DNA of 64,000 nt, taken from contig NZ_JAATJC010000001.1 in assembly GCF_011927725.1 (NCBI RefSeq), forward strand, positions 1,619,001 through 1,683,000. Reading direction: 5' to 3'. How positions within the stretch are numbered: the stretch's first letter is position 1; each line of letters opens with the position of its first letter. A model generated the notes under the pieces. The model ran no database searches. It had not been told where the DNA came from and was given only the letters and a program-made list of their open reading frames with translations. Made by a program: the position numbers and the translations under genes. This stretch comes from Sphingomonas kaistensis. Its GTDB lineage: Bacteria; Pseudomonadota; Alphaproteobacteria; Sphingomonadales; Sphingomonadaceae. Positions 1-17,897 of the stretch are shown in pieces.

Positions 1-2
1 AT

Positions 3-584: not shown

Positions 585-723
585 GATGTTGCGTTTGCAC
601 GGGCGAGGGCAAACCAGAGGGAAAGCAGTTTCACTCTGTGCTATATCGAAGCTCAGAACAGGGAAGTCTTAAGCTTGGAATGACAATCGTCAGCTCTGAC
701 GTGTCGCGTAGGGTGGTAACAGC

Positions 724-2753: not shown

Positions 2754-2772
2754 GATTGCCCTCGGGGCGCGC

Positions 2773-3165
2773 TCAGCCTTTGATTGTAATCTCGATCTGA
2801 GTTGGATCGACTCCGAAGGTTGCAGCGAGCCCGGCTTTCGCCTCGGCGATTGTCAGCCTCTGAGCGCCGCTGCCGGTTCCGTTCGTTTGACCGTCTTTGG
2901 CTTCCTCGCTGCCTTCTTCATCACCTCCAACATATACAAAAGTGACCTGCTCATTTTTGAGATCAAGATCTACTGCCTTCCACCCGGCTAGCTGCCAGCT
3001 GAGGCTTTGCGACCGCATCTGGTTGGCCCACCACGCCTGATAAGTCCTCGCGCTTTCTGGGAGAGAAACGTCTGATACCCGTTCGATCTCCTGGAAGGTT
3101 GCTCGCCACCGGGTGTCGTCCAAATTCGCCAGATGCTTTGTAAGTTTATGATATTTCCGACTCAT
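2773..3165 (-). CDS. DUF7662-like small protein
   Basis: A 130-residue protein. Residues ~4-75 show a pattern I associate with DUF7662: KLTKHLANL, then a TF-x-EIE segment, LPESARTYQAWWAN, and SWQLAGWKAVDLDL leading to QVTFVYV. In other proteins this module is found alone or fused to GIY-YIG and other nuclease domains, and is thought to resemble a winged helix. The C-terminal ~50 residues are an acidic, Gly/Thr-rich linker and a short predicted alpha/beta segment. It lies 19 bp upstream of the CoiA-like gene on the same strand (stop 2773, next start 2753), so the two are probably co-transcribed. Function is unknown. Confidence 0.6.
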   Translation of the reverse strand: MSRKYHKLTKHLANLDDTRWRATFQEIERVSDVSLPESARTYQAWWANQMRSQSLSWQLAGWKAVDLDLKNEQVTFVYVGGDEEGSEEAKDGQTNGTGSGAQRLTIAEAKAGLAATFGVDPTQIEITIKG

Positions 3166-3529
3166 ACATCACCTCTATCAACGTAGATGTATAAGGGCAG
3201 GCACTTAGATATCAAATTCCGACACGCGAAGCGTTCGCTTGGGCCGCCGCCGACGCCCAGTTTTGCTAATTCGCACGCTTGCTCATGGTGGAAACCTGCC
3301 TGTCCGCTTTCGGGCAGTCGCATGGGAAGAGCAGACGTTCGTTCAGCTTGGAAGCCGAGATCCACTCAACGCCCATCGCGACCATTCGTTATTTCGGTGC
3401 TAACTTGCGGCTGGCTTGATCGTAAGCGCTCGTGCGCGAGGTCTCAATTCGATCCTTGAGCGACCTTCGCGAGGCAAGATTTCGACTTGGCCGCAGACAC
3501 GAGCGACTGAAAACGTTTAACTTGCTCGC
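3166..3529. other. Gene-free stretch with degenerate repeat fragment
   Basis: This is 364 bp between the start of the DUF7662-like gene and the stop of the K+ channel gene. Open frames here look non-coding (no domain pattern, no ribosome site). It contains TGTCCGCTTTCGGGCAGTCG at 3301-3320 and GCAGACGTTCGTTCAG just after it. These resemble boxes at 19145-19160, 19227-19245 and 4946-4967 and suggest decayed copies of a dispersed intergenic repeat. Confidence 0.5.
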
Positions 3530-4780
3530 TCACTGATCATCGCGAGAAGTCGCATCGGTCAAGCACCTTTCGGGCATGTCGCTTTCTGGCTGCCGGTATT
3601 TCGTAGCCGGCGTTTTGGTTGGCTTGGGAAGTCGACCTGTTTCCAAGAGCTCGCTGATGCATTTCTGCGCAGTCTTATTGGAAATACCGAGCTTCTTCGC
3701 GATCGTCTTATGGACGCCCTTTGACCATGTTGATGTCATGCCCCGTGGTGCTTCGGCGTAAACCCTTTCGACCTGCACCGGATTGTAAGTCGTCGCCACC
3801 CAACGTCGCGCCTCCGCTAATTGAGGCACCACCAAGTCCGAAATCCGCTCCAGGCGCAATTGCGCTCCTTGCTCCGCGCTTGTTATTGCAGGAGCGCTCG
3901 TTGGCCGAAAGCGTTTCAACAACACACGCCACAGGGGCCCCCGAGGTGGTGGTGCCTGATGCAAGCTCTTCATTCGTTCAACGACGCGCTGCAGCTCGGC
4001 CATACTCTTGAGCATGCGTTTCAACACCAATGCACGCTGTCGGTCGCCCGAGAGCGGAAGGAGCTTGACGGAGCGTGGAACGAGCGTTGCCAGCAGATCA
4101 AAGGAGGCCTTGATCTCAGTATAGAGACCAATCAGGGCGGTGAAGTTGCCAAACTCCAAAACGCTTGCATGGTGGGCGTTGAACGTAAGGTAATTGGCAA
4201 GCCCTCGAGTCAGCCTAAGCTGTCTGCCCAACTTGTCGAACAAAGCGGCAGTCTGGCCGCCACTGATATCGCCGGAGATCTGGTCGCGTAGGGACGCCAA
4301 CCGTTCGCCGAACTCTGCGATGCGCCGCTGCGTGTCACTCGTGTGAAGCAGCAGCAAAGTATTGGCTTGCCGCTCTGATGCGACTTTTCCAATTACCAAT
4401 GCGGTCAGCACCAAACCGAACGCCACGACCAGAGCTGCAACGATGCGGCCGAAGCCCTCAGGTGCGAGATCGCCATAACCAAGCGATGTGAACGTAACGA
4501 CCGAGAAATAGATGGCCCGGCCAAGCCCCTGCTCGGCTGGATCAGAGTGTAATTGGTCTGGCACAAGCCAGAAGTAGACAGACGACAGCAGCAAGACGGC
4601 CAGCGCCAGCAGCAGGAGATCTGCGTAGCTGGCTCGATTCACCAAAAGCCCGAACCGGCTGGTTAGCCGACGGACAGGTACATCGGGGTTGAGCAACCCG
4701 TGCTGATCATCCTCCTCCTTGTTTACGAGAGCAGGGGCGGTTCCGACGGGCTTGTTAAGGGTGTCAGTGTCGGTGGTCAT
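3530..4780 (-). CDS. Two-transmembrane potassium channel with C-terminal HTH-like domain
   Basis: A 416-residue protein started at ATG 4780, which has AAGAG about 6 nt upstream; an upstream TTG (4816) would add 12 residues. Transmembrane helices lie at ~53-73 and ~109-133. Between them sits a pore loop with the K+ selectivity filter TSLGYGD (residues 98-104), so it is an inner-membrane K+-selective channel of the Kir/KcsA-like topology. The cytoplasmic ~280 residues do not look like an RCK/TrkA-N domain: no GxGxxG nucleotide-binding motif is visible. Residues ~357-384 (KTIAKKLGISNKTAQK...) read as a helix-turn-helix. The N-terminus is a ~50-residue acidic, probably disordered segment. Channel identity is firm; gating ligand and tail function are unknown. 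Confidence 0.85.
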   Translation of the reverse strand: MTTDTDTLNKPVGTAPALVNKEEDDQHGLLNPDVPVRRLTSRFGLLVNRASYADLLLLALAVLLLSSVYFWLVPDQLHSDPAEQGLGRAIYFSVVTFTSLGYGDLAPEGFGRIVAALVVAFGLVLTALVIGKVASERQANTLLLLHTSDTQRRIAEFGERLASLRDQISGDISGGQTAALFDKLGRQLRLTRGLANYLTFNAHHASVLEFGNFTALIGLYTEIKASFDLLATLVPRSVKLLPLSGDRQRALVLKRMLKSMAELQRVVERMKSLHQAPPPRGPLWRVLLKRFRPTSAPAITSAEQGAQLRLERISDLVVPQLAEARRWVATTYNPVQVERVYAEAPRGMTSTWSKGVHKTIAKKLGISNKTAQKCISELLETGRLPKPTKTPATKYRQPESDMPERCLTDATSRDDQ

Positions 4781-5302
4781 TTTCACTCTTGAAGCGGCTG
4801 CCAAGCGGCGGTGCAAGACACTTTGCGAGCGCTCACGAGGGCGCGCCCAACCTTCTCAAGGTGTTTAGACGGGCTGCTGCGGTAGTAATCGCAAGCTTGA
4901 CCAATGGTACTTGCGAAGGGTCGGGGCGGCCTTCCGCGAGGCAGATCCGCTCATGGTGGGAAGCGGACTGGCGGATTGTGGCTCGCTGGTGCGGATAACT
5001 GACGTCCGTTCATGTGTTGCGGTGGCTTCGGCTTCGCGCCCATGCTGGACCTCAAGCACACGACTTTCCGCATTCACGATCAGGCACTCATTTAGTGCTT
5101 CTTTTGTTTCTACCTTGAGGCTCGTTGAAGGTCTCGAGCAACTCTGCAGTTTCAATAAGCTGCTGCCGCGCTTCTGCGGTTCGGACGGTTTCAGCCTTGC
5201 GTCGGAGTGTGGTTGCATTGTCAGGTACAGGGCACACTCGGAGTGGATGTTTGGCGCGCATCGCGAGCTTACCACCCCTTAGCCGCATGAAGGGAAGCCA
5301 GC
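4781..5302. other. Intergenic region with inverted repeat fragment
   Basis: There is no convincing gene over ~520 bp apart from the weak small ORF at 5088-5306. At 4946-4967 a 6-bp inverted repeat, TCCGCT...AGCGGA with 10 nt between, resembles the GTCCGCT-containing repeats seen at 3301 and around 19145-19245. Overlapping frames on both strands lack ribosome sites and recognisable domains. Confidence 0.4.
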
Positions 5303-5306
5303 TCAT
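5088..5306 (-). CDS. Possible small helical protein, weak
   Basis: A 72-codon frame whose ATG overlaps the stop of the upstream DUF11 gene as ATGA (5303-5306), the arrangement expected for translational coupling. Residues ~30-65 (TTLRRKAETVRTAEARQQLI...) form an amphipathic, Arg/Glu-rich helix. This is reminiscent of small sphingomonad proteins with an 'LRRRAEEAR...A' pattern, but no family can be named. The N-terminal ~28 residues look poor. It could be a real tail gene of the DUF11 operon, a degraded gene, or chance. Confidence 0.25.
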   Translation of the reverse strand: MSWLPFMRLRGGKLAMRAKHPLRVCPVPDNATTLRRKAETVRTAEARQQLIETAELLETFNEPQGRNKRSTK

Positions 5307-7651
5307 TGCACCAACGCTCGGAAGCGAATGCTAAAGGAGCCGTTGCTGACGAGCCGGTTCTTCAGCTTGAGGCGGAAGAAGGTTACTGCGGGATCGACAC
5401 CGTCGGCATTGGCGGTAGGGACATATCCCCAGTCAGAGGCAGTGGGAGCCGCGGCGGTGGTAAATTCGAGGTCATCGGCGGTGCTCGACAAGGCGACGTA
5501 GCTGTAAGCCAGCCCGCTCGCCGTTGCCCCATCGACGAATGAGATCGGGCCGCTGCCAGCCAAGCCGAAATCGCGCACCAGCATCTTGGTGTTGGCGGGA
5601 ATGGCATCGCTCAGCACCACGCTGTTGAGGTCGGTCTGCTGGCCGCTCGGGTTGGCCACGGTGATCGTGTAAGTGACGATCGCGCCGGGAATGTTCTTGG
5701 GGTTGGCGAAAAGGTTGATCGGGTCCCAGTAAACCTCGCCAGCCTTAGACGCGGTGAGCGGGGCGAGGACCTTCAGCGTGGCCGTGGCCGAACTGAGCGA
5801 GGCGACGGTCTGGGTTGCATAAGCAACCGTAAGGCCGCCTGCAGGAATTGTGTTGACCGCGTCGCCTGCCGTTTTGCCGGTTACATCGGCGGCGACCGTG
5901 CAGGTCGAGGCCGCGGCGACGCTTCCGCCGCTCAGGGCCAGCGAGGAACCGCTGGCCGAGGCCGAGACGCTTCCGCCGCAGCCCGTCGTTGCATTCGGCA
6001 GCACGGCGTTCGCGATGCTGGTCGGGTAGGTGTCGGTGAAGGCCACCGAGCTCATGGCGAGCGTCGGATTGCGGTTCTGGACGGTCACGGTCAGTCGCGA
6101 GCTTTGACCAATGCCGATCGGCGAGACCGAAAAGGCCTTGGTGATGACCGGGGTGCATTCCGCGCCCGACGACATGCCGGGAATGGCCGAGGTGACGATG
6201 GTCGCGCCCGCGCCGCCATTACCGCCCTGCGCTCCGTAAGAGGCACCGAACGTGCCGCCGTTGGCGGTGGTGCCGGCCGTTCCGCCTGTCACGTTGGCGC
6301 TCAGCGCGAAGCTGCTAGCGACGAATCCGCCGCCACCGCCGCCGCCCGGTCCATGCGCCGTACCGCCGCCGGTGTTGGTGCCGCCATTGCCGCCGCTGGC
6401 ATTGACCGTGACACTGGCACCGGCGGCGTCGAGAGCGCTGATGAGAGCGCTGCCGCCGGCGCCGCCACCGCCGCTGCCATCGTTGAGCACGCTGTTGTTG
6501 GCGCTCTCGCCACTGACGTTGATGGTGCCCGAACCGCGCAGCTTGTCCGCGCGCACAATGACGATGCCGCCGCCGTCGACGCCGCTCGACGCAAAGCCGG
6601 CGGCCGGGGTGCCGGTCGCGTTGTTGGTGCTTCCCGCGCCGCCGCCGCCGCCCATGATCAGGCGGTCGATCGCGAGGCTGGTGACCGCGCGGCCACCGAC
6701 ACCGCCGGTCTGCGGGCAGCCGATCGGTGCCGTGCCGCACCACGCATGGCCACCGAGCCCGCCTGCGCCATAGCCCGCGCCGCCGCCGCCGCCGGTGTTC
6801 TGGTCGTTAGCGCCGGGATTGCCGTCGGTACCGCCGCCGCCGCCAGTCGCCGGTGCGCCTCGGCCGTAGCTGCCATTTACATATCCTTCGACCCCGGTGT
6901 CGAGAAGGCTGTTGCTGGCGTTGAGGTAGCGCGGCGTGCCGGCGATGCTTTCGCCCTTGCTGGCGTTAGCGGCGTTGGTTGCGAGCGTGCGATAATCGGT
7001 GTTGAAGCCGGTGCCTCCTGCAAGCGCGCGTCCGCCGCCGCCACGGAAGCCGAGCGAGGCGGCGCTGATGGTCCCGCCATTGAGGTTGAGCGTGCCGGCA
7101 ACGTCGAGCACGACAACGCCGCCGCTGGTGCCGTTCCAGTCGGCGCCGGTGACCGTTCCTCCCAGCGTCAGGTCCGAATATTGCGGAACGCGGATCACCT
7201 GGAAGCGGCGTTGTCCGGAGGCGCCGTAAGCGGCGTTGGTGTAGGCATAGCTGAGCCCGGCTCCGCTACCGCCGACCAAAGTCAGCGTCCCGCCGGTCAG
7301 GGCGACGTTGCTGGCAGCGCGAACGAACTCATAGCGGCCACTGTTGTTGATGGTCGCGGCGCCGTAGCTCGCACCATTGGTGGTATCGATGGTCGCGTCC
7401 TGCATCTGGATGACGAGCAGGAGGTCGCCGGCAGCGATCGGGTTGGAGGCGCCTTGGGCCGCGCCGAGCGTGATGCTGGTCGCGCCGGCAGCGGCCGAGG
7501 CGGTGCCGGGATAATAGGTGTTCACGATCCCCGAAAGGGCGCTCACCGCGCCGGCGCGCGACGGGCTGGCGCAATTGTTGGCGATTGCTGTCTGCCCGAA
7601 GGCGATGACGACAAGTGCCAGGAACAGCCTGCTCAATCGAAGTCGGATCAC
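5303..7651 (-). CDS. Secreted Gly-rich DUF11 surface protein
   Basis: A 782-residue protein starting at GTG 7651, one base after the stop of the giant gene, so it is in the same transcript. Residues 1-24 are a signal peptide ending in TAIA. Residues ~190-490 are extremely Gly/Ala/Asn-rich with many GGGGGAG clusters, like bacterial Gly-rich surface proteins. Residues ~500-780 contain two DUF11-type beta-sandwich repeats (VITKAFSVSP..., then GEVYWDPINLFANPKN...). The last strand, FSIRFRALVQ, ends the protein, as in its neighbours. It is the last confident gene of the cluster. An extracellular or envelope location is predicted; adhesion or coat function is inference. Confidence 0.75.
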   Translation of the reverse strand: MIRLRLSRLFLALVVIAFGQTAIANNCASPSRAGAVSALSGIVNTYYPGTASAAAGATSITLGAAQGASNPIAAGDLLLVIQMQDATIDTTNGASYGAATINNSGRYEFVRAASNVALTGGTLTLVGGSGAGLSYAYTNAAYGASGQRRFQVIRVPQYSDLTLGGTVTGADWNGTSGGVVVLDVAGTLNLNGGTISAASLGFRGGGGRALAGGTGFNTDYRTLATNAANASKGESIAGTPRYLNASNSLLDTGVEGYVNGSYGRGAPATGGGGGTDGNPGANDQNTGGGGGAGYGAGGLGGHAWCGTAPIGCPQTGGVGGRAVTSLAIDRLIMGGGGGAGSTNNATGTPAAGFASSGVDGGGIVIVRADKLRGSGTINVSGESANNSVLNDGSGGGGAGGSALISALDAAGASVTVNASGGNGGTNTGGGTAHGPGGGGGGGFVASSFALSANVTGGTAGTTANGGTFGASYGAQGGNGGAGATIVTSAIPGMSSGAECTPVITKAFSVSPIGIGQSSRLTVTVQNRNPTLAMSSVAFTDTYPTSIANAVLPNATTGCGGSVSASASGSSLALSGGSVAAASTCTVAADVTGKTAGDAVNTIPAGGLTVAYATQTVASLSSATATLKVLAPLTASKAGEVYWDPINLFANPKNIPGAIVTYTITVANPSGQQTDLNSVVLSDAIPANTKMLVRDFGLAGSGPISFVDGATASGLAYSYVALSSTADDLEFTTAAAPTASDWGYVPTANADGVDPAVTFFRLKLKNRLVSNGSFSIRFRALVQ

Positions 7652-7652
7652 G

Positions 7653-10600
7653 TCACTTGCCCCCGGCCCGGCCGAACAAAGCGGCGGGCGTATCCTGGTC
7701 GAACTTGAGGCGCAGGGTCACAAAAGGACCAGCGCGGGTGTAGCGGGCATCCGAGAAGTCGCGATCGCGGAAGCCCTTGATGTTGTAACCGAGGCTCACC
7801 CAGCTGTTCTTGACGGGCGAGATCCCGACCGACGGGCCGACCAGGTAATCGACGGTGCCCGAAGAAGCGACATGGCGGACCGCGGCATTAAGGCTGAAGT
7901 CCAGCCGGTCGCTGAGGTCGCGGCGCACTTCGAGACCGATGAGGTTGCTGAAGCCGGCATAATCGTCGGCACCGAAGGTGTCGAAGACATACTTCGAACC
8001 CCAGTAGAGCGAGACCTGGTAGCGCTGGTACGCGCGCTTCGCCGTGTCGCGATCGTCGATGCCGGCCGCGCCGACGAGGTTGAGGGCGAGGTTGTTGACG
8101 ATCCGGCGAGTGCGGGCATCACCGACTACCGACAGGCCGTCGAAGCCGAGCAGGCCGCCGGGAGCGGTGATCGCTCTGGCGCCGCGACCGTTGGTGATCT
8201 CGTCCCAGCGCAGCTCGAGCTTGTCGAGCACGGCCCAGCGCGACCACAGCGGGCGCCAGGCGAACGAGCCATTGGCGAGGCCGAGCGTGGCGACCGTGCC
8301 ATCGGCGCTTCGAATGCGGCTGAAGCGAGCGGCGGCGGCCATACTGATGCCATCCTGGATCTGCCGCAGCAGCGCGGTCGACAGCGCGACCCGGTCGTCG
8401 AAGTCGCCGCGGCGAAGCTCGGCACGCGCGGTCCAGCTCAGCACTGGAGTGCGATAGGTAGCTCCAGCACTCACCGCCCAGAAGTCGTCGCTGATCGTCT
8501 TGCCCTCGTCGAGGTAGCCGCCGGCGGCAACCGGGTGATTCAGGTTGACGATGTTGTCGGCGGCAATTGCGCCCTTCAGCGTGCGGCTCCCGTCGACCGC
8601 GAGGTCCACGCTCCAGCGAGGGGTGAGGATCAGCGACTGGCTGATGCCATAGAGGCCGTAGGTGCGCCCGCCGAACTCGCCCATGCCCTGCTGGTTGACC
8701 GTGGTCGCCAGGCGCATGCCGCGCCACGGTGCCGCTTCGATGCCGAGGCTGGTGGTGGCGGTGTCGACCTTGGCGCCGTCGGTGATCTCGTGGCTGGCGA
8801 GCAGGCGGACATCGGGGCGGACCGCCCAGGATAGGCCGGCGCGGTAGCGGTTTGGGAAGTCGAGGCTCTCGCCCTTGCCGGCCAGGCCGACCGCGGCGTC
8901 GGCATCGAGCTGCAGGCGGTTGCCGAATAGCTGCTGCGAGCCGCCGAGGGTGACCTGCTGGCTGATCAGGGTCTCGCCCGAAGGCACTTCATCGCGAGCG
9001 AACTGATAGCCGGCGCGGATCGAGGTGCGGGGTGCTCGATATTCGACCTGGCTGCGCAGCGCGTCGCGGCTGGCGCCGGTTGCCACGATGTCCTCGTGCC
9101 AGCCGCCGACGGTTAGCGAAAAACCCTGTGCGCGGCCGAGGCGGACGTCGGCACCGAACTTGCGGGTGCCGGCTTCCGCACGGTTGAGCTGGCCAACCCC
9201 GAAGCCGAGGTCCTGCTGGCGGAAGTAGGCGAGGGCGTCGAGCGTCTCTCCGCGATGCTCGGCCTCGAGCAGATAGGCCTGGCCCTGGCGCTTCTCGCCC
9301 GCAGCGTTGGTGCGGCTGGTGGCGATCTCGGCGCGGACTTCGGTAGTGCCGCCAAGGCGGACCTTGGCATCGACGGCGGCCAGGTCGCTGGTTTGCGCCG
9401 GGTCGGCATCGCGCAGCACGGTCGCGCCGACTTCGGCACGCCCAGCGGCAACCCGCGCGACGGCGCGCAGGCCACCGTTCCAGCGACGCGTGCCTTCGCC
9501 GTGTGTTTCGTATTCGACGACGATGAAGATCGGATTGCCCTCGCCGTCCCGGCTGGCGATCGGCTGGCGGAAGTCGATGCTGCCGGCCTCGTAGCTGATG
9601 TCGTAATCGGCGTGGCGGGTCAGCTCGCGGCTCGACAGGATGAGGTTGGAGCGAAGGCGGTCGCGCACTTCGACCCACACCTTGTCCGAGTTGATGACGA
9701 TGTCGTTGCGGCTGAGGCGATAGAGCGAGGCAAGGCCAGAGCCCTGGATCTCGTCGCGCGCGAAGCGGAAGCCGGTGTCGGCGGCGAACGCTTGGACCGC
9801 CAGCTTGTTCGAGCGAAACTCGCTCTTGAGGCCGGTCAGGCTGCGGCTGTAGCGGGCCAGTTGCGTGTCGTTGAAGCCGGTTTCAAGGTCGCCGAACAGC
9901 GCGTAGAATTGTGGGCGCTCCAAGCGGAGGTAGACCTTGCGGCTGCTTGCGGCGTCATAGGCCTGCTCGGTGCCGTCGGCGTAGAGGTCGTAATAGCGCT
10001 GCGGATCGATCACGCCGCCGAGCGGACGGCGCGCGTCGCGGCCGGTCTTCTTGTCGGTGTCGTAGGCCATGGTCAGCAGCCACTTGCCGAGGATCCGGCC
10101 CTTGGCGAAAAAGGCGACCTGGCCGTCGGTGAAGCGCTTTGGCGCGCCCTTGCCGCCGAGCCGCTCGGCATGATCGTCCAGAACGTTGAAGCCCGCGGTA
10201 CCGGCGGCGAAGCCGACGACGACCCAAGGCTGGTCGCCCGGCGCCATCCAGCCACGCACGACCTCGCGGACCTGGCGGCGCTCGACCTGGTGAGTAAAGG
10301 CAAATTCGATCGACCCGGCCTGCGTGGTCGGGGCGAGCTCGATCAGCGCGACGCCATCGTCGGTCGACACCTGCCAGGTCGGCTGGGCGCGGTCGGCGCC
10401 GGATAGCTGGCGGGCCTGCTGCAGGTCGAGGTCGCTGGCGACGCGGTAAGGCGCAGTCAGCTGGAAGGTGCCGGTGACGCCCTTGCGGACCGGCTTGCCG
10501 GCACGGTCGGTAAGGCGCATCGCGACGATCGCGCGGGTGCGGCCATCGGCGATCAAGCGCGACTGGGAGGAAACCAGCTCGGCCCGGGCGACACTGTTGG

Positions 10601-12749
10601 CGTAGTGCAGCGTCTGCGCGAACTTCTCGAGCAGCGCACCACCGGCGCCGCGGACCTCGACCTCGAGACGGTTATCGCCTTCGTTCAGCGGCAAGCCCTG
10701 GTACTGAGTGACGAGAAAGCTCTTGTCCTTGCTCGCATCGCTGGTGTCGAGGTTGATGTCGGGCACCGTGACACCGTTCATGCGTAGCTTGAGGCTGCTG
10801 CCGGCGACATGCTTCACGACGACGCGGACGGCCGGCGATGCAGGATTGAAACCCTCACCAGGGAACAGCAGCGCATTGCCCGCCTGTTGACCGGCGAACC
10901 AGTCGACCGCCGGAGCCGCGGTGGGAGGCGCGATGGCCGGCTGAGCAGGGGCAGGGGCCGCAACTAGCGCGCCGGTGCGACGCAGGTGGAAGTTGGTGCG
11001 CCACAGAGTGCCGCCGCGCACTTCGGCGAATTGCGAGATGGCGCTGCCGCCGTGACGGGTGTCGCGAAGGCATTGCACCGGCTCATACCCCTCAGGCAGG
11101 CTGGCCACGTCGAGCTGGACGACGTGGGCGCCGGGACGGACGCCCTCGAAGTGGAATAGGCCTTCGCGGTCGGACAGGACGTAACTGCCGTCCTCCATCA
11201 GGATACGGATGCCGGGGACGCCCGCCATCTTGGTCTCGGGCGCATCGCAGCCTCCGTCGGAAACGCGGCCGACCAGGGTCGCGGCATCGCTCATCAGGAA
11301 CGGGCGGATGTCGACGATGGCGCGTGCCTCGTTGCTGGTGGCGATGCCGCCCGCGGTCGCGACGACCTTGTTCAGCGCTTCGCCGGTTGGGGCCGCTCCG
11401 GTGACCTGGACGACATAGGTGACGACGCGGGTCGAACGGGCAGCCACGCTGCCGAGCGCCAGGCGAAAGCCGTTGCCCGACGCGTTTAGGACCGGCTCGG
11501 CGGTCGCCTTGCCATCGACGCGCAGCGAACCGGACTTGTAGCGCAGCCCCATGCTCATGCTGTCGAGCAGGACCGTGGCGTTCAAGGCCACGGTCGCGTT
11601 GCTGTTCTCGACCGTCACGCGATACTGAATGAGATCGCCGGCGCTAGCCTCGCTGACTGAGGCGGTCTTGCGGACCTGCAGCGGCAGCTGGCGCGGGTCG
11701 AGCGGCACGTCGATGCGGAAGAGGGCAAGCCCGTTGACCACGAACGGCAGCAGGTAGGAGCCCTGGGCATCGATCTGGAACGGACCGGACGGGCCGCTCA
11801 GCTGGCGGAGCTGGTCGGCGGGAACCTGGCTCGCGGCAGTGTAGCCGGCAGGGGGCACGATCTTCAGCTGGTAATTGCCGGGCGCGACGACCGGGAATCG
11901 GAAACCGCCGACCGGTAGCTTGTAGGTCCGTCCAGCCGAGTCCGTCACTATACCGCCGCTGGTCACCGTGGCCGGGAAGCGGCTTGCCCCATCGTCGCCG
12001 AAGACGAGGGCCGGCTGGCCAGTAGCGCGGTCGATCAGGGTGATCTCGGCGCCATTGAGGAGCGCGCCGGTCTGACTGTCGAAGACATATTGGATCGGAT
12101 CGCTGACGACCGTCGCCTTGGACACGTCCGAGCTGTAGGCAGGGTCGGTGTAGCTCGCCTGCAGCGCCGCTCCGACATCCATCGACAGGATGCAATCGAA
12201 GCGGGTCGATGCCGGGGGCGTGCTTGCGGTCATGAACTCGGCGGCGAACAGGCCGGTATCCGGGCCGGTCTCACGGAGGCGGAGGAGTTCTTCATCGCCA
12301 TTGCTGCTGGTGAGCGTCACCTCGACCCACTCACGGCTGGTGGGATCGGTGTTGCGATTGGCATCGGTGAGAGAGACGATCAGCTTGTCGCCGGCGTGGG
12401 CGGCCGCGGTTTCGATCGCCATCTGCTGCTGACTGCCATCGGCGGCCACGCGCGCAGCGGCGCTCGACGAGAAGCTGCCCTTGGCGTCGCGGCACAGCCC
12501 GCCGTCGGTCGGGACGATCACCCCACCGCTGCTCGCGGTACGGAGGAACATGACCTTCGACGGCGAGGGCGGGAGCAGTCGGTCGGCGACCACGGTATTG
12601 GAAAAATAGGTCTGACGGGTCCCACCGAGCTGCAGCGATAGGCTGGCGCGGTTCTCGATCGGCGCTGCGATGGCCGGCCCGCTCACGCCAAGCAGTATCG
12701 CCGCGAGGGCGATCAGGCTGGCGAGGAAAAGGCGGGCTGAGCGGGTCAT
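7653..12749 (-). CDS. Giant DUF11/SdrD-like protein with C-terminal outer-membrane barrel
   Basis: A 1698-residue protein. Residues 1-28 are a signal peptide. In order: an N-terminal segment with ENRASLSLQLGG shared with its neighbours (~30-60); a LRLRETGPDTGLF beta repeat (~155-175); prealbumin-like/SdrD-B segments (~215-310); a DUF11 domain (~370-480); a second SdrD/carboxypeptidase-regulatory fold (GVPGIRILMEDGSYVLSDRE, ~510-560); an Ig/invasin-like segment (~690-830). From ~850 to the end come alternating amphipathic strands and arginine/tyrosine-rich turns (YYDLYADG..., RKVYLRLERPQF), typical of an outer-membrane beta-barrel, ending in FVTLRLKF close to the C-terminus. It could anchor or export the smaller DUF11 subunits; that is inference. 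It is not a TonB receptor: no plug or TonB box is visible. Confidence 0.75.
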   Translation of the reverse strand: MTRSARLFLASLIALAAILLGVSGPAIAAPIENRASLSLQLGGTRQTYFSNTVVADRLLPPSPSKVMFLRTASSGGVIVPTDGGLCRDAKGSFSSSAAARVAADGSQQQMAIETAAAHAGDKLIVSLTDANRNTDPTSREWVEVTLTSSNGDEELLRLRETGPDTGLFAAEFMTASTPPASTRFDCILSMDVGAALQASYTDPAYSSDVSKATVVSDPIQYVFDSQTGALLNGAEITLIDRATGQPALVFGDDGASRFPATVTSGGIVTDSAGRTYKLPVGGFRFPVVAPGNYQLKIVPPAGYTAASQVPADQLRQLSGPSGPFQIDAQGSYLLPFVVNGLALFRIDVPLDPRQLPLQVRKTASVSEASAGDLIQYRVTVENSNATVALNATVLLDSMSMGLRYKSGSLRVDGKATAEPVLNASGNGFRLALGSVAARSTRVVTYVVQVTGAAPTGEALNKVVATAGGIATSNEARAIVDIRPFLMSDAATLVGRVSDGGCDAPETKMAGVPGIRILMEDGSYVLSDREGLFHFEGVRPGAHVVQLDVASLPEGYEPVQCLRDTRHGGSAISQFAEVRGGTLWRTNFHLRRTGALVAAPAPAQPAIAPPTAAPAVDWFAGQQAGNALLFPGEGFNPASPAVRVVVKHVAGSSLKLRMNGVTVPDINLDTSDASKDKSFLVTQYQGLPLNEGDNRLEVEVRGAGGALLEKFAQTLHYANSVARAELVSSQSRLIADGRTRAIVAMRLTDRAGKPVRKGVTGTFQLTAPYRVASDLDLQQARQLSGADRAQPTWQVSTDDGVALIELAPTTQAGSIEFAFTHQVERRQVREVVRGWMAPGDQPWVVVGFAAGTAGFNVLDDHAERLGGKGAPKRFTDGQVAFFAKGRILGKWLLTMAYDTDKKTGRDARRPLGGVIDPQRYYDLYADGTEQAYDAASSRKVYLRLERPQFYALFGDLETGFNDTQLARYSRSLTGLKSEFRSNKLAVQAFAADTGFRFARDEIQGSGLASLYRLSRNDIVINSDKVWVEVRDRLRSNLILSSRELTRHADYDISYEAGSIDFRQPIASRDGEGNPIFIVVEYETHGEGTRRWNGGLRAVARVAAGRAEVGATVLRDADPAQTSDLAAVDAKVRLGGTTEVRAEIATSRTNAAGEKRQGQAYLLEAEHRGETLDALAYFRQQDLGFGVGQLNRAEAGTRKFGADVRLGRAQGFSLTVGGWHEDIVATGASRDALRSQVEYRAPRTSIRAGYQFARDEVPSGETLISQQVTLGGSQQLFGNRLQLDADAAVGLAGKGESLDFPNRYRAGLSWAVRPDVRLLASHEITDGAKVDTATTSLGIEAAPWRGMRLATTVNQQGMGEFGGRTYGLYGISQSLILTPRWSVDLAVDGSRTLKGAIAADNIVNLNHPVAAGGYLDEGKTISDDFWAVSAGATYRTPVLSWTARAELRRGDFDDRVALSTALLRQIQDGISMAAAARFSRIRSADGTVATLGLANGSFAWRPLWSRWAVLDKLELRWDEITNGRGARAITAPGGLLGFDGLSVVGDARTRRIVNNLALNLVGAAGIDDRDTAKRAYQRYQVSLYWGSKYVFDTFGADDYAGFSNLIGLEVRRDLSDRLDFSLNAAVRHVASSGTVDYLVGPSVGISPVKNSWVSLGYNIKGFRDRDFSDARYTRAGPFVTLRLKFDQDTPAALFGRAGGK

Positions 12750-12812
12750 CGAGTATCCGAATAGGAGGGGGAGAAAGACCCCGCCGGGCGCCGGTCAGGA
12801 GCGGCACCCAGC

Positions 12813-12824
12813 GGGGGGGGGGGG
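12813..12824. repeat. G12 homopolymer (C12 on the coding strand)
   Basis: Twelve consecutive G on the plus strand, 64-75 bp upstream of the ATG of the giant gene and just downstream of the stop and hairpin of the preceding gene. Tracts of this length slip during replication and in other bacteria underlie phase variation of surface proteins. Here it lies outside coding sequence, so any effect would be on transcript structure or promoter spacing. Confidence 0.85.
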
Positions 12825-12846
12825 CGCCTCGCCCAGAAGCGAGGCG
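12825..12846 (-). terminator. Intercistronic stem-loop before the giant gene
   Basis: A perfect 8-bp stem, CGCCTCGC/GCGAGGCG, with a 6-nt loop. It starts 7 nt after the stop codon of the upstream DUF11 gene and runs directly into the C12 tract on the minus strand. No U-tract follows, so it is more likely a partial terminator, processing site or mRNA stabiliser than a full intrinsic terminator. Confidence 0.6.
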
Positions 12847-12852
12847 GAACGC

Positions 12853-13932
12853 TTAGTTGATGGTCACGCGAAAGCGGATCGCCGAGGAGGCGCCGCCGTT
12901 GATCGTGCCGAGGTTCGAAGTGACGGTATTCGAGCTGAAGTTGCTCTGGTCGCCGTCGGCCGCATCGGTCTGTAGCGTGCCGTCGGTGTTGCAGGTGCCG
13001 CTGCTAACCGTCACGCCGGTGAAGATCGAACCGTTGAGGTAGGTCACGCCGCTGACGCTGGCGAGATTATCACTGATGATCGCCGAGTTGGCCGCACCGG
13101 CACCGGTGTTGGTGGCGACGATGCAATATTCGACGGTCGCGCCCGGGATGCGCTTCGGGTTGGTGGTGCCGTTGAACGGGTCGGAGATGATCTTGCTGCT
13201 CTTGGCGAGCACCAGGGTCGGGGCGACCACCTTGTACGTATCGTCGGCCGACGACTTGCCGTCGCGCAGCGCGTCGGTCTTGCCGGCGATGTCGGCGAAG
13301 ACGATGTCGACCACCGCCGGGTTGTCGGCGCCGGCCGACTGGACGAGGTCGCTGCCCTGCGCATTGGTCGTGCCACCTGCGGCGGCAGTGGCGGTCAGCA
13401 CGACGCCCGCGAGGCTGGCGTCAGCCTGGCCGGCCGGCGTGTCCGAGACGATGAATACGGTGCGGGTCGCGTCGGCGGCGAGCTCATCGACATAGGTCGC
13501 GACGTCGACGCCGGCGTCGTAGATACCGTTGTTGTTGCTGTCGACGAACACGCGAATGTTGTTCTGGTTGAAACTGTCCGTACCGCCAAACGCCACCGTC
13601 TGTCCGCTCGCCAGCTGGCTTGCCAGCAGCGAGAAGTCGAGCGTCGCGTTGGATGTGTTCGTGACGGTGAAAGTGGTTACGAAATTGAGGCCGCCGGGCG
13701 AGGTCGGCGAGACCAGGCCGCCGACTTCGGCGACGGTCAGGTTGACCTTCTGGTCGACCTTGAAAGTGGCGATGTTGGAATTGACGTTCGCTTGGGTGAC
13801 ACCGCCGGTCGCGTAACCGATGGTGGCCGTGTTGTTGACGTCGGTGCCGGCAGGCGTGCCGGCCGCCGTCACGGCGGTGGCGAACGACAGGGCCGAAGCC
13901 GTGCCGAGCGCTATGTAGAGTGCCTTCTTCAT
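12853..13932 (-). CDS. Secreted DUF11-type subunit
   Basis: A 359-residue protein with ATG and SD AGGGTAAG. A signal peptide covers ~1-23. The mature N-terminus reads AGTPAGTDVNNTATIGYATG, followed by GG...SN and a VDQKVNLTV strand, closely paralleling the first gene of the cluster. Residues ~128-137 (DSNNNGIYD) form a calcium-binding-like loop of the DxNxNGxxD type. A DUF11 domain (KSSKIISDPFNGTTNPKRIP..., ~245-359) closes the protein with the strand AIRFRVTIN. It is probably an exported structural or adhesive subunit. Placed between the small DUF11 gene and the giant barrel gene, it is followed by a stem-loop, which could make it more abundant than the downstream products. Confidence 0.75.
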   Translation of the reverse strand: MKKALYIALGTASALSFATAVTAAGTPAGTDVNNTATIGYATGGVTQANVNSNIATFKVDQKVNLTVAEVGGLVSPTSPGGLNFVTTFTVTNTSNATLDFSLLASQLASGQTVAFGGTDSFNQNNIRVFVDSNNNGIYDAGVDVATYVDELAADATRTVFIVSDTPAGQADASLAGVVLTATAAAGGTTNAQGSDLVQSAGADNPAVVDIVFADIAGKTDALRDGKSSADDTYKVVAPTLVLAKSSKIISDPFNGTTNPKRIPGATVEYCIVATNTGAGAANSAIISDNLASVSGVTYLNGSIFTGVTVSSGTCNTDGTLQTDAADGDQSNFSSNTVTSNLGTINGGASSAIRFRVTIN

Positions 13933-13997
13933 GATGATCTTACCCTGCTGTTACGATGGTGGTGGATGGGATGGATGGACCGGAGGAAATCGGGGTG

Positions 13998-14018
13998 AGC
14001 CGGTCCGGCGAACCGGCT
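13998..14018 (-). terminator. Intercistronic stem-loop overlapping a stop codon
   Basis: A perfect 7-bp stem, AGCCGGT/ACCGGCT, with a 7-nt loop. It overlaps the TAG of the 151-residue DUF11 gene and is 66 bp upstream of the next start. It lacks a U-run and probably attenuates or stabilises rather than ends the transcript. Confidence 0.45.
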
Positions 14019-14472
14019 ATTTTAGGCGCGCCTTGAAGAGCACGTGGCCGCTTGCCCCCGGGGCGATCGTGGCGAGGTTCCAGCGCACGTGAGTCACGTC
14101 CTTGGGCGCAGCGGGTCGCTGCGTGCCGTCGGCGTTGGCGACCTTGAGGGAAGTCAGGACGGCGAAAGTCTTGCCGCCGTCGACCGAGACCAGGGCGCTG
14201 TCGCCCGCGACATATTCGAGAGTCGCCGGGACCGGATTGGTCAGCACCACCTGCTCGGCAGGCTTGGCGCCGCCATTGGCGTAGCTCAGGTCATAGATGA
14301 CCTCCTGGCCCGGCGTGACGTTGCCGGCCGGGACCAGCACGACGCGCTTCACGCCGGCTTCCGCGACTGTCTTTTCCTGCAGCACGCGGGCCGTCAGGCT
14401 GACGCCTTGGGCTTGCGCAGCGCCGGCCAGCAGACTGCTGGCTACAAACGAAATGATGATCTTCTTCAACAT
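14017..14472 (-). CDS. Small secreted single-domain DUF11 protein
   Basis: A 151-residue protein. A signal peptide spans ~1-21, ending in GAAQA. The rest is one DUF11-like beta-sandwich: TARVLQEKTVAEAGVKRVVL, GQEVIYDLSYANGG, the domain signature NPVPATLEYVAGDS (~83-96), and a terminal strand HVLFKARLK. It starts 18 bp after the stop of the first gene of the cluster, so the two are co-transcribed. A single free domain of the same fold as the larger neighbours fits a minor subunit, cap or chaperone-like part, but this is speculative. Confidence 0.75.
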   Translation of the reverse strand: MLKKIIISFVASSLLAGAAQAQGVSLTARVLQEKTVAEAGVKRVVLVPAGNVTPGQEVIYDLSYANGGAKPAEQVVLTNPVPATLEYVAGDSALVSVDGGKTFAVLTSLKVANADGTQRPAAPKDVTHVRWNLATIAPGASGHVLFKARLK

Positions 14473-14490
14473 GATACAACTCTCCTGAGC

Positions 14491-15489
14491 TTAGCTGTTC
14501 ACACGCACTTGAAAGGAAATGACGGCGTTGGACTTGGCCGACAGGGCGCCGATGGCGACGCGGATCCCAGCCGTGCCGGCCTCGCCCGCATCGCCGTCCG
14601 CGGCGTCGGTGAGGCTTGCGCCGTTGAGCTTGAGCGAGCCGGCGACGTAGCTGGTGCCGGCCGGAATCGGATCTTCGACGAGCCCGCCGCTGGTGGGCAC
14701 CGCCCCCTGGTAGCTAGCCGTCAACGTGTAGGTGATGAGCGCACCGGGAAGCGCCGAGCTGCCGCCGTTCGGATCGACGATCTGCTGCGCCTTGGCGAGC
14801 TGTGGCACGGCTAGGCTAGCGACATAGCTGCCCTGGGTGATCGCGGTAGCGGTGGTGCCCCCGACGACGGCTTCGGTGCTGCCTTCACCGCGGCCGGCGA
14901 AGACGGTGCCGGGTGCGCCGCTGCCGGTCACCGCGGTCGCGCGCAGCGACGCAAGGCCGACCGCGGCATCCGCAAGGCCGGCGGGAACACCCCCAAGGAC
15001 GAAAACGGTGATGCTGGCGTCGGCCTTGAGCAGCGGATCGTCCGTGCCGGCACGATAGGTCTGGTCGACCCCCGGATCGAACAGGCCATTGCCGTTGGTG
15101 TCGAGGGCCAGGCTGGTGATCGCCGGGTCCCACTGGTCACCGCCGATCGCGCCGACGGCGCTGAGAACGAATGCCTCGGGTGCGTTGCCGGCGTTGACGA
15201 CGCGAAAGGACAGCACCCTGTTCTGGTCGCCGGCCGCCACCGGTACGCTGCCACCGTCGAGCGAGGCGACGGCGACGTCGATCCGCTCGTCGACCTTGAG
15301 CGAAGCTGCGTTGGACTGAACGGTGCGCTGCTCGCCGCCGGCGACCCAGCTCAGCTGCGCGACGTTGACGATCTCGCTGCCGGCGGGGGTGCCCTCGGCG
15401 TCGGCGGCCGTGGACGATGCAGCGCACAGGGCGAGCGACAGCGCAAGACGCGCCTGCCGTCCGATCCGTCCTGTCGTTTGCCTCGTCAT
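14491..15489 (-). CDS. Secreted DUF11-type subunit, first gene of the cluster
   Basis: A 332-residue protein started at ATG 15489, which has AAGGGAGC ~8 nt upstream; the longer frame to 15654 adds 55 residues without signal-peptide character. The signal peptide includes LALSLALCAASSTAADA. The mature N-terminus EGTPAGSEIVNVAQLSW...GG...SN and the calcium-loop-like DTNGNGLFD parallel the 359-residue neighbour, so the two are paralogues. The C-terminal DUF11 domain (KAQQIVDPNGGSSALPGALI...) ends in AVISFQVRVNS. It is probably transcribed from the promoter region that carries the TTTACA boxes at 15676-15752. Confidence 0.75.
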   Translation of the reverse strand: MTRQTTGRIGRQARLALSLALCAASSTAADAEGTPAGSEIVNVAQLSWVAGGEQRTVQSNAASLKVDERIDVAVASLDGGSVPVAAGDQNRVLSFRVVNAGNAPEAFVLSAVGAIGGDQWDPAITSLALDTNGNGLFDPGVDQTYRAGTDDPLLKADASITVFVLGGVPAGLADAAVGLASLRATAVTGSGAPGTVFAGRGEGSTEAVVGGTTATAITQGSYVASLAVPQLAKAQQIVDPNGGSSALPGALITYTLTASYQGAVPTSGGLVEDPIPAGTSYVAGSLKLNGASLTDAADGDAGEAGTAGIRVAIGALSAKSNAVISFQVRVNS

Positions 15490-15675
15490 TCCCGCGCGCT
15501 CCCTTGAAAGGATGCGCAGAACCGACCGTGAGGTCGCGACCGCAAGCTTGCAGACAATCAGCGAAAGGGGAACGCCGGCCGTCTGCGCACTGGTGGACTT
15601 GGTTGCACCCCGTGGGGGAAGCGACCGGCCCTGCGCGACACCCCCATTAGCCACGGCTTGCCGTTAACGCTCATC

Positions 15676-15964: not shown

Positions 15965-16341
15965 GCGTTACGGAAGCGCGCGCGTAATTCGTCGGCAAGC
16001 GTCAATGGGTCGAAAGGCTTAGCAATGACGTCCATCGCACCGGCCACCTTTAACGCTTTGATCCGATCCGGCATCAGGCTGGCCGTCATGAAGATCGCCG
16101 GGACTGCGGCGGATTGCGGATCCTCGCGCAGCCTGGCCAGCAGTTCCTCCCCAGTCATGTCCGGCAAGCGGTAATCGAGCAGGTAGAGGTCGGGCACGAT
16201 CGCCGCGCTGTCCTCCAGCAGGGCCGGGCCGGAGCCGTAGTGCGTAACCTCGAACCCGCCGATTTCCGTCAGCGCAAGCTGGGCCAGAATGGCGATGTCG
16301 GGGTCGTCCTCGACCAGGATGATGGTGCGCAGGTCGTTCAT
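15955..16341 (-). CDS. Single-domain response regulator (CheY-like receiver)
   Basis: A 128-residue stand-alone receiver: acidic pocket D12-D13, phospho-acceptor D56 in LLDYRLPDMTG, and the switch Lys in the AKPFDP motif (~108). There is no output domain, so it acts by protein contact or as a phosphate shuttle. Its ATG overlaps the kinase stop as ATGA, so it is translationally coupled to the kinase. With the kinase and Hpt gene it forms a phosphorelay operon. Confidence 0.92.
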   Translation of the reverse strand: MNDLRTIILVEDDPDIAILAQLALTEIGGFEVTHYGSGPALLEDSAAIVPDLYLLDYRLPDMTGEELLARLREDPQSAAVPAIFMTASLMPDRIKALKVAGAMDVIAKPFDPLTLADELRARFRNAQS

Positions 16342-17897
16342 GATGCGGGCAGTTCGATCCAGAAACAGGAGCCGCCGCCGGCGCGGGGCTCATAGCCGAT
16401 GCGGCCGCCATGCTGCTCGACGATGGCGCGACTGATGGCAAGGCCGAGACCCGTGCCGCCATGGCCGCGACGATTGGCATCGACCGCCTGGGAAAAGCGA
16501 TCGAACAGGCGGTCGACGAAGCTTTCCGGCACCCCGGAGCCGCAATCGCGCACCTCGACCCGAATCAAATGGTCGCGGCGCATCCCGGCCACCTCGACAA
16601 CGGAGCCGGGCGGGCTGTGCCGCGTAGCGTTGGAGAGAAGGTTGGTGAGGACCTGGAGCAAGCGTCCCGGGTCGCCGGTCAGCGACAGCGGCTCTCCGGA
16701 CACTGCTTCGAGGCGAACGTCCAGACGCTCGGCGAAGGGTTCATTCTGCTGCACCGCGTCGCCGATCACTTCGCTCATCTGCAGCGGCACCAGGATGTAG
16801 CCGGTCTGCCCGCGGGTAAGCCGCTCGATGTCGAGGATATCGTCGATCAGGGTGCTGAGCCGCGCGGCATTCTTCTGTGCCATGTCGAGCATCTGCCTGG
16901 CGCGGTCGTTGATTCCGGTGCCAAGACTGGCGCCGAGCAGGGCGATGGCACCGCGGATGGCAGTCAGCGGCGTGCGCAGTTCATGACTGATGGTCGAAAT
17001 GAACTCGTCTTTCGCGCGGTTGCTGATGCGCTCGGCGGTAAGGTCACGAACGGCGACGATGAACCCCTGGCCATCGTCGAGCCGCAGGCGGACCGAGTGA
17101 AGCGTCCGGCCTTCGCGGGTCGAGATCTCGGTTTCGGACCGGACGGTGTGGCGGATGGCCGCAAGCATGGCCGGCAGCATGGCTTCGTCCGCATCCGGTC
17201 CGAACAAGCCCCAGCGAAGGCTCTTCTCCAGCATCTCCGCGGCATCGGTGCCGCGCCGCTTCATTTCATCGTCAAATCCGTGTAGTTCGAAAAAGCGGTC
17301 GTTCCACAGCGCGAGTTTTAGGTCGGAATCGAAATAGGCGATGCCCTGATCGACGTTGTCGAGCATTACGCGCAGCAGCTGCGCCGTCCGCTTGAGCTCG
17401 AGCTCGCGCTTTTCGGCGACAAAGGTACCGAGACGCGTTTCGATGAGATTGGACGCGACCACCGCGAGGTCCGCCAGCTGCTGTCGCTGCGCGGGGGTGA
17501 TGGTGCGCGGCTTGGTGTCGATGATGCAGAGCGACCCGATCGCCACGCCGCTGATGGTGATCGGCGCGCCTGCGTAAAAGCGGATGAAGGGGGCTCCGGT
17601 GACCAGGTCGTTGTCGGCAAATCGCGGATCCGCAAGCGCATCCTCAACGACCATCGCCTCCGATTGACGAACGGTGTGGCCGCAAAAGGCGCTTTCGCGA
17701 TCGGTGCCGCCGGTAGTGAGGCCACAGACCCCCTGAAAGATCTGTCGATCGCGGCGAAGTACCGTCAGCAACGCGATCGGCACGTCGAATATGGTGGCGA
17801 CCGTCTTGCTAAGCTGGTTGAAGGCTTCCTCGTCGCTCTCGCCAAGGCCGTAGCGCGTGATGACGCGCTGGCGCAGTTCCTCCTGACTATCGATCAT
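16338..17897 (-). CDS. GAF-PAS sensor histidine kinase
   Basis: A 519-residue soluble kinase with no transmembrane segment. The GAF domain is at ~15-160 (FDVPIALLTVLRRDRQIF, CGHTVRQSEAMVVEDALADP), followed by a short coiled coil and a PAS domain at ~172-290. The HisKA domain has phospho-acceptor H305 in STISHELRTPL; the ATPase domain has the N-box around N423, DCGSG (451-455) and GGTGLGL (480-486). GAF domains of this subtype sense small ligands or redox state in the cytoplasm. ATGA overlaps join it to the Hpt gene upstream and the receiver gene downstream, so the three are made together. Confidence 0.93.
   Translation of the reverse strand: MIDSQEELRQRVITRYGLGESDEEAFNQLSKTVATIFDVPIALLTVLRRDRQIFQGVCGLTTGGTDRESAFCGHTVRQSEAMVVEDALADPRFADNDLVTGAPFIRFYAGAPITISGVAIGSLCIIDTKPRTITPAQRQQLADLAVVASNLIETRLGTFVAEKRELELKRTAQLLRVMLDNVDQGIAYFDSDLKLALWNDRFFELHGFDDEMKRRGTDAAEMLEKSLRWGLFGPDADEAMLPAMLAAIRHTVRSETEISTREGRTLHSVRLRLDDGQGFIVAVRDLTAERISNRAKDEFISTISHELRTPLTAIRGAIALLGASLGTGINDRARQMLDMAQKNAARLSTLIDDILDIERLTRGQTGYILVPLQMSEVIGDAVQQNEPFAERLDVRLEAVSGEPLSLTGDPGRLLQVLTNLLSNATRHSPPGSVVEVAGMRRDHLIRVEVRDCGSGVPESFVDRLFDRFSQAVDANRRGHGGTGLGLAISRAIVEQHGGRIGYEPRAGGGSCFWIELPAS

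Follow-up and report, generated by a model that had tools for sequence, protein, structure and literature searches.

Organization of the locus

The window analysed in this work is a 64-kb stretch of the 2.85-Mb single-contig genome of Sphingomonas kaistensis, and our subject is a cluster of five genes in it, named A to E here, the products of which may assemble into an outer-membrane fibre held together by a naturally divided DUF11 domain. The five genes are consecutive on the minus strand and each product begins with a hydrophobic, signal-peptide-like stretch (judged by eye); both points had been made in a first-pass annotation of the same DNA, and both were borne out. Throughout the text, acceptor means a DUF11-like, immunoglobulin-like (Ig-like) domain which lacks its last strand, and donor means a segment matching that missing strand.

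Gene A (14491..15489; 332 amino acids, with an ATG at 15489 in a reading frame open from a GTG at 15654) codes for a secreted subunit which carries a donor segment near its mature N-terminus (15271..15396) and an acceptor domain at its C-terminus (14494..14811). It is followed by the short gene B (14017..14472; 151 amino acids), which has a single acceptor-like domain and no donor, and by gene C (12853..13932; 359 amino acids), another secreted subunit with a donor segment (13741..13866) and an acceptor domain (12856..13218), which we propose as the main subunit of the shaft. The giant gene D (7653..12749; 1698 amino acids) carries a donor segment (12561..12668), an N-terminal half of Ig-like, DUF11 and carboxypeptidase-regulatory-like character with one complete DUF11 domain (11292..11681), and a C-terminal half predicted to form an outer-membrane barrel (7656..10217; residues about 845-1698). 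Gene E (5303..7651; 782 amino acids), the proposed tip adhesin, has a variable head (in the window a glycine-rich, AgmC-N-like part at 6320..7546), a DUF7933 stalk domain found in the Pfam scan (5768..6151) and an acceptor domain (5306..5761). All these features lie on the minus strand. The operon structure is deduced from the intergenic gap lengths alone (A-B 18, B-C 84, C-D 103 and D-E 1 bp), and no promoter-like site was found at the locus.

The small genes had been described as consisting mainly of DUF11 domains, which was upheld only in part. B (28.0 bits), D (26.8 bits) and E (27.8 bits) exceeded the cut-off of PF01345 (DUF11), but A remained below it (19.3 bits) and whole C was not listed at all, having only a TIGR01451 match of 23.7 bits (cut-off 24); the last 122 residues of C alone reached 22.4 bits with DUF11, and its membership was recognized through profile comparison. 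Moreover, only the C-terminal third of A and C is DUF11-like, and in E residues 36-444 match gliding_AgmC_N instead.

Conservation and distribution of the gene set

D was searched against 247 Sphingomonadales genomes (the order sample; threshold for a D match E-value 1e-20) and matches were found in 67 of them, spanning 25 of 70 genera; genome counts here are raw numbers, uncorrected for relatedness. Among named organisms, D had its nearest relatives in Sphingomonas humi (98%) and S. rosea (81%). The occurrence is patchy even in the window's own genus, where two genomes had a D match and at least 20 had none. Around the D matches 60 loci from 58 genomes were taken (about 20 kb each, one of 15 kb), which together with the window make up the 61 loci referred to below; five further loci with D matches (those of G105, G183 and G229, and partial ones in G108 and G205) stand outside the 60.

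The order A-B-C-D was kept in all 60 relative loci, A and C adjoining D in every case and B being detected in 59. This conservation goes beyond chance, and the five genes are real and part of a conserved system; the first-pass annotation had expected the giant and the small genes to occur together, and they do. In a second set of 80 loci, 63 had the arrangement A-B-C-D, seven of these being followed by a further region that the C profile recognised (an E-like end), and the remaining ones were mostly cut by contig ends or had no recognised A or B. Nine of the 80 were labelled outside Sphingomonadales, namely three of Lysobacteraceae, three metagenome-assembled genomes (MAGs) of Moraxellaceae, Asticcacaulis and two doubtfully labelled MAGs; B, C and D were recognised in 9/9 and A in 5/9. 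In a sample of 348 genomes of the phylum D matched in 31 and the acceptor profile in 14, all of which were among the 31. The system is not confined to sphingomonads: further carriers were met in Lysobacteraceae and Moraxellaceae, in Asticcacaulis and elsewhere in the phylum. Distant loci follow the same grammar, with N-x-A starts and truncated DUF11 ends.

Some individual loci deserve mention. Two genomes (G018 and G121) carry two A-B-C-D loci and six donor matches each. In L112:7878-12982 (Sphingopyxis sp. PET50) and L115:6836-13012 (a MAG doubtfully labelled Bordetella parapertussis) D appears as several fragments, and these are either broken genes or sequencing errors. A second, distant family was met in order genomes (L221-L226, L229, L230), in which the giant is split into two genes, with an N-terminal half of about 740-1600 amino acids and a barrel half of about 1170-1480 amino acids, the latter mostly with GPFLNILGRF-type C-termini; in L222, L223 and L229, the three loci of this family whose other subunits were read, these subunits have an N-x-A start and a truncated DUF11 domain at the end.

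A DUF11 domain divided between donor and acceptor

A DUF11-like stretch of 105-155 residues, lacking the last strand, closes A, C and E at or near the chain terminus. The acceptor reaches to within 8 residues of the chain end in 61/61 A and 61/61 C proteins, and the exceptions among E proteins are L213 and L232, with 12 and 15 more residues. The alignment of 37 C and E ends contained the invariant positions K6, D13, P14, P21, P25, G26, A27, Y31, N37 and D50. In A, C and D the segment just after the signal peptide matches the missing last DUF11 strand. The sole invariant column of the donor alignment (36 of 39 rows, after the A of L065 with a misplaced start, the A of L087 and the D of L052 had been dropped) was an Asn in the context I-x-N-x-A.

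The complementarity of the two parts stood out only on a broader DUF11 profile, which was built after two weaker tests. It was seeded from the DUF11 domain of D, with D proteins excluded from the search set, and comprised 88 domains. These came from 53 proteins that belong to none of the families A-D, and domains lying 25 residues or less from the C-terminus were left out. On this profile the acceptors of A and C, as well as the domain of B, end at column 92, and the donors occupy columns 95-111 (A and C) and 99-111 (D). The donor score was reached by column shuffles in 0/200 cases for A, 1/200 for C and 3/200 for D, and none of 332 other windows, taken from parts of A, C and D that are neither donor nor DUF11, scored as high as the donor of A or of C. 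Terminal Pfam DUF11 matches end at position 85 of 114 or before (13-85 in A of the window), and eight internal matches in D and E proteins extend to positions 95-114. When acceptors were joined to donors, the score increased in 4/4 pairs (from 24.6, 25.4, 22.4 and 24.0 bits to 26.8, 30.3, 24.1 and 31.0 bits) and the end of the match was shifted from 65-85 to 97-111 of the 114 positions.

Donor and acceptor occur together in 61/61 C and in 59/61 A proteins (in two A the donor was undetected), D carries the donor only (61/61), and no donor was detected in B (60/60) or in any E of the scanned loci. The donor profile was built from A, C and D, and its hits in these proteins are partly due to this construction, which does not apply to its absence in E and B and to the counts per genome. 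Among the order genomes it matched 64, with three hits in 57, six in the two genomes with two loci, two in four and one in G172; these are per-genome totals, irrespective of whether a match lies inside a locus. The acceptor profile matched 65 of the 247 genomes: it was present in 64/64 genomes with D and in 1/183 others (G172), if three genomes (G012, G135, G162) are left out, which were set apart post hoc as having only a weak partial D match to a different, split barrel pair. With these counted, D and acceptor occur together in 64 genomes, D alone in 3 and the acceptor alone in 1. In G172 A is followed by a fusion of B and E (L227:7068-7850; a B-like N-terminus with an E-type acceptor), C and D were not detected, and the locus is apparently the remnant of an internal deletion. 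The first-pass annotation had overlooked both the halves and the distribution of the catalytic residues over different proteins described in the next section.

The gap between C and D in the window contains a GC-rich hairpin with a T-rich tail (12779..12816, minus strand; 15-pair stem), a possible attenuator or 3' stabiliser. Perfect stems of at least 9 pairs within 90 nucleotides after the gene were found behind C in 35/61 loci, behind A in 1/61, behind B in 3/60 and behind D in 0/60, a distribution that would fit higher production of C than of D and E.

Since A and C each have both halves, and nothing in their sequence forbids a closed ring, their donors might fold into the acceptor of the same chain; the result would be closed monomers, and only D and E would pair, as a two-part anchored adhesin without any polymer. 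This seems quite unlikely to us: the donor-only D together with the acceptor-only E suggests pairing between chains, the maintenance of two dual-ended subunits in 60/60 loci would be left unexplained, and the frequent hairpins behind C fit a subunit of high copy number.

The isopeptide triad and protein B

According to the part of PMC12617251 consulted, DUF11 is identical with the CLIPPER domain, which forms an intramolecular Lys-Asn bond with the help of a catalytic Asp, and the crystal structure 9IFR shows this bond within one chain. The internal DUF11 domain of D was aligned to 9IFR by a profile search of the PDB; with respect to the residues Lys715, Asp748 and Asn806 named in that part of the paper (PMC12617251), Lys and Asn were matched exactly along the D alignment, and the aligned Asp was one position off (749). 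Across the 61 loci this internal domain has Lys in 60/61, Asp in 61/61 and Asn in 60/61 cases, so that the complete triad is found in a single domain of one chain in D, and the domains of A, C and E end before the position of the Asn. In the acceptors Lys was present in 61/61 A, 61/61 C and 61/63 E proteins (two gaps) and Asp in 61/61, 61/61 and 63/63, respectively; in the donors Asn was present in 59/61 A, 61/61 C and 61/61 D proteins. (The E set comprised 63 proteins in 61 distinct rows, some of them from overlapping loci, and included the G172 fusion.) The CLIPPER triad is split, almost without exception, between acceptors holding Lys and Asp and donors holding Asn.

B consists of one DUF11-like domain of about 130 residues, in which Lys was retained in 3/60 proteins and Asp was replaced by Asn in 57/60. 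This loss of catalytic residues is firm only for the order, as B of some distant loci has Asp or Lys near the triad positions (by eye). No PapD-type chaperone match to B was obtained in Pfam and NCBIfam up to an E-value of 0.1. B is acceptor-like, has no catalytic residues and has no donor; in the periplasm it probably covers donor strands as a chaperone or cap.

Donor-strand fibres such as the pili of the chaperone-usher and type V kinds hold without any bond of this sort, and a fibre assembled by strand exchange alone, with the triad kept only for packing, has to be considered here too. The three catalytic residues are nearly invariant in the system and are lost in B, which argues against a mere packing role, and we regard a non-covalent fibre as unlikely.

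The giant protein D

The C-terminal half of D, about 850 residues, is weakly indicated to be an outer-membrane barrel. Residues 845-1698 contain 41 amphipathic segments by a crude and uncalibrated measure (4.8 per 100 residues, compared to 3.5-3.7 elsewhere in the protein). In distant relatives the C-termini of the barrel halves are of the GPFLNILGRF type, which we take to be beta-signal-like. The barrel proposed by the first-pass annotation received weak support from both sources. D alone had no match in the PDB; its profile retrieved the DUF11 structure 9IFR and two partial hits, and no SprA chain was among them. Matches to the usher (PF00577, in Pfam and NCBIfam) and to the autotransporter translocator (PF03797) were absent up to an E-value of 0.1.

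An OmpA-type motif was found before the barrel in 26 of the 120 listed relatives of D, and four relatives which were checked had one to three OmpA domains between the N-terminal half and the barrel. This position of the OmpA domains suggests that the N-terminal half of D, together with its donor, faces the periplasm, and the earlier interpretation of the Ig-like half as an adhesin is accordingly disfavoured.

The OmpA domains bear also on the picture originally drawn for the cluster, in which D, anchored by its barrel, acts as a surface adhesin to which the small DUF11 proteins attach in a coat resembling a surface layer (S-layer), without exchange of strands. D does contain a DUF11 domain, and its residues 94-210 gave a weak, partial match to the model of an anammox S-layer protein (29.6 bits, cut-off 1400). 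Such a coat leaves the split domain unaccounted for, the periplasmic N-terminal half argued for by the relatives speaks against it, and we consider it very unlikely. The more general idea of the first-pass annotation, a coat or fibre built with the barrel protein as anchor or exporter of the others, agrees with the presence of the small genes beside the giant, but the mechanism proposed here, strand exchange, had been missed.

The variable protein E

E is variable and often unlinked: the same C-terminal domain was found within the stretch in 33/61 loci, usually directly behind D, and in each of 20 unlinked regions which were taken there was at least one protein with an E-type C-terminal domain. 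In the window, residues 36-444 of E match gliding_AgmC_N (NF047640; E-value 7.5e-41, 140 bits, below the curated cut-off of 275), and no paper linking AgmC and gliding motility was found in the open-access literature. The heads of ten other E proteins comprised three with a P-domain, one with CshA_NR2 and SpaA_3, two with long DUF11/DUF7933 stalks and four with nothing above cut-off (one without any match, two with weak DUF11 and one with weak Calx-beta). We propose that E is a variable cargo or tip. The last residue of the chain is N, D, E or Q in 52/63 E, as well as in 58/61 A and 55/61 C proteins.

The acceptor lies at the C-terminal end, or close to it, in E proteins which are diverse and often unlinked, and in the order sample it was found only in genomes with D (apart from G172). 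Both features would be expected also from a sorting signal for export via D, comparable to the cargo domains of type 9 secretion, with the N-terminal segment being an unrelated retention or docking signal. It would remain unexplained, however, that the N-terminal segment corresponds to just the strand which the DUF11 domains lack, that Lys and Asp on the one hand and Asn on the other are placed on opposite parts, and that the segment is present in D; a signal of this sort alone appears very improbable. The acceptor may nevertheless serve as an export signal in addition, which would be compatible with the fibre model described below.

Proposed model of fibre assembly

From these features we infer that the products of the locus form a fibre at the outer membrane, in which donor-strand complementation joins the subunits and isopeptide bonds lock them, with E as the tip, A and C as the shaft, D as base and pore and B as chaperone, and we consider this model fairly probable. 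The C-terminal DUF11/CLIPPER domains of A and C, which lack the last strand, would each be filled by the N-terminal donor of another subunit, so that the donor of one subunit completes the acceptor of the next. The Lys-Asp-Asn triad would be reunited in this way and could form a spontaneous intermolecular Lys-Asn isopeptide bond at every joint, the product being a covalent head-to-tail polymer, a natural counterpart of the engineered tag/catcher pair. E, having a head and an acceptor and no donor, is placed at the distal end as the tip adhesin, and D, having a donor and no open acceptor, is placed at the base. The base of the fibre would be held under the barrel of D and the fibre would probably pass through it, with B probably serving in the periplasm as donor-strand chaperone or cap. 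What the sequences themselves show is the gene order, the divided domain and triad, the protein on which each half lies and the joint occurrence of the parts; the fibre, its covalent bond and polarity, its export through D and the role of B are predictions built on these.

Several observations weigh against this model. No experiment on the system was found in the literature; closed monomers of A and C are conceivable, as discussed above, and the evidence for the barrel is crude. The donor of D is less distinct than those of A and C, as 17 of the 332 other windows score as high. In the fusion test one of two hand-scrambled controls also increased, by 1.9 bits (from 24.0 to 25.9), and reached profile position 114, the other one decreasing from 24.6 to 21.7 bits; one control acceptor was five residues shorter than its partner. 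In a first fusion test the donors were outside the 14 best of 264 windows, and against the DUF11 domain of D alone they gave weak matches at the right end for A (E-value 0.25) and D (0.12) and none for C. A search of the PDB with the acceptor profile did not retrieve 9IFR. Finally, of the 21 phylum genomes with D (E-value 1e-20) outside the family of the window, no more than 5 had an acceptor match; several of the acceptor-negative D genomes there have more diverged B and A/C-like genes beside D, and others have only partial D matches.

Neighbourhood of the cluster

The G+C content is 56-60% at positions 1-6000 of the window, to the left of the cluster and at its start, and 64-72% in most of the window; together with the patchiness in the genus, this drop makes a horizontally acquired neighbourhood possible. 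A GAF-PAS histidine kinase is encoded upstream of A (16338-17897). A weaker kinase match near the cluster was seen in only one (L060) of the other 60 loci, therefore the kinase is probably not part of the system.

Comparison with known systems

A close parallel is offered by chaperone-usher pili, which are built from Ig-like subunits without the last strand and with an N-terminal donor, and which have a donorless tip with a head and a groove, an outer-membrane pore and a small periplasmic partner. The sequences of the present system fit this scheme in the truncated Ig-like subunits, the donor at the mature N-terminus, the donorless and headed E, the predicted pore and the small partner B. However, no usher, PapD-type chaperone or fimbrial family match was obtained in our scans; the acceptor here is a DUF11/CLIPPER domain, a covalent lock is predicted, the pore protein has a donor of its own, and some of its relatives contain OmpA domains.

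Type 9 secretion combines the giant barrel SprA with a conserved C-terminal Ig-like cargo domain. In our system, by contrast, the cargo end is a truncated DUF11 domain and D had no SprA family match. The cargo domains Por_secre_tail and CHU_C gave no Pfam match in A-E (up to an E-value of 0.1) or in the ten further E proteins (up to 0.01); a search of the window's own genome for SprA (TIGR04189) was also without match, but it was uninformative, as the control genomes gave none either. Type 5 autotransporters have a C-terminal translocator of about 280 residues, unlike the barrel-like part of D with its about 850. An LPXTG-type motif with a hydrophobic tail, as used by sortases, was not seen in the alignments inspected by eye, where the chains end with a DUF11-like strand. 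Membership of D among S-layer proteins was rejected, as only a partial match to the anammox S-layer model was present. The type 11 secretion system was rejected too: the paper in question, which combines DUF11, outer membrane, barrel and Sphingomonas, matched mostly through DUF1194 in the part consulted.

CLIPPER domains, as described in the consulted part of PMC12617251, share with the present proteins both the family and the Lys-Asp-Asn triad; what differs is that the domain stops short of its last strand in our system, with the Asn on another protein or at the opposite end of the chain. Head-to-tail donor-strand fibres with proposed intermolecular isopeptide bonds are described for archaeal threads (Saci_0406), where the bond would connect Asn57 with the N-terminal alpha-amino group of Asp24 two subunits away (PMC9715654, in part). 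Compared by description only, these threads differ in being archaeal, in having a bond other than Lys-Asn and in lacking an outer-membrane barrel. Natural autocatalytic isopeptide bonds between chains are mentioned in the same part of PMC12617251 for phage capsids (Lys-Asn) and for an alpha-helical hairpin fold, and neither is described there as a split Ig-like domain. Among the systems met in the literature, the archaeal threads and these intermolecular bonds come nearest as precedents. The SpyTag/SpyCatcher pair and the tag/catcher pair derived from RrgA, as far as the consulted descriptions go, are likewise isopeptide domains split into a strand and a remainder which rejoin covalently, but they were split by engineers, while here a natural split would be used for polymerisation. 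In grappling-hook filaments (GhlA; GhpA-like) DUF11 beads form surface filaments from a single giant chain of 49 DUF11 domains, according to the consulted part of PMC13319060, in contrast to the many short split-domain subunits proposed here. The accessible part of a preprint on spore appendages reports DUF11 domains in an anchor protein and no use of them as donor strands.

No convincing hit was obtained in the PDB with the acceptor profile, A or B. In the open-access literature, to which our search was confined (most subscription papers and preprints lie outside it), no description of a DUF11 donor-strand or split-isopeptide system was found. Fibres assembled by donor strands are already known; the one predicted here would be built from unrelated parts and closed by a split-domain lock which we did not find described. 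With somewhat more confidence than doubt, we suggest that the loci stand for a kind of Gram-negative surface fibre which is widespread and so far unnamed. Its subunits would be polymerised covalently, head to tail, by a naturally split isopeptide domain, outside the cytoplasm and without an enzyme. The polymer would pass through a giant outer-membrane barrel to which it is welded, and would be equipped with exchangeable tip adhesins scattered over the genome and with B, a catalytically dead acceptor, as donor-strand chaperone.

The arrangement of the halves would provide a sequence rule, with the acceptor at the C-terminus and the donor at the mature N-terminus, by which partners could be predicted in unseen genomes. 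If the model is true, its donor/acceptor pairs would be natural covalent peptide/protein pairs for protein engineering, and many proteins annotated as 'DUF11 domain-containing' or 'TIGR01451 repeat' would be explained as shaft, tip and base of one machine. The assembly step itself would then be a covalent weld formed without an enzyme, and Sphingomonadales, Lysobacteraceae, Moraxellaceae, Caulobacterales and others would share a fibre which, as far as tested, stands outside the chaperone-usher and sortase kinds.

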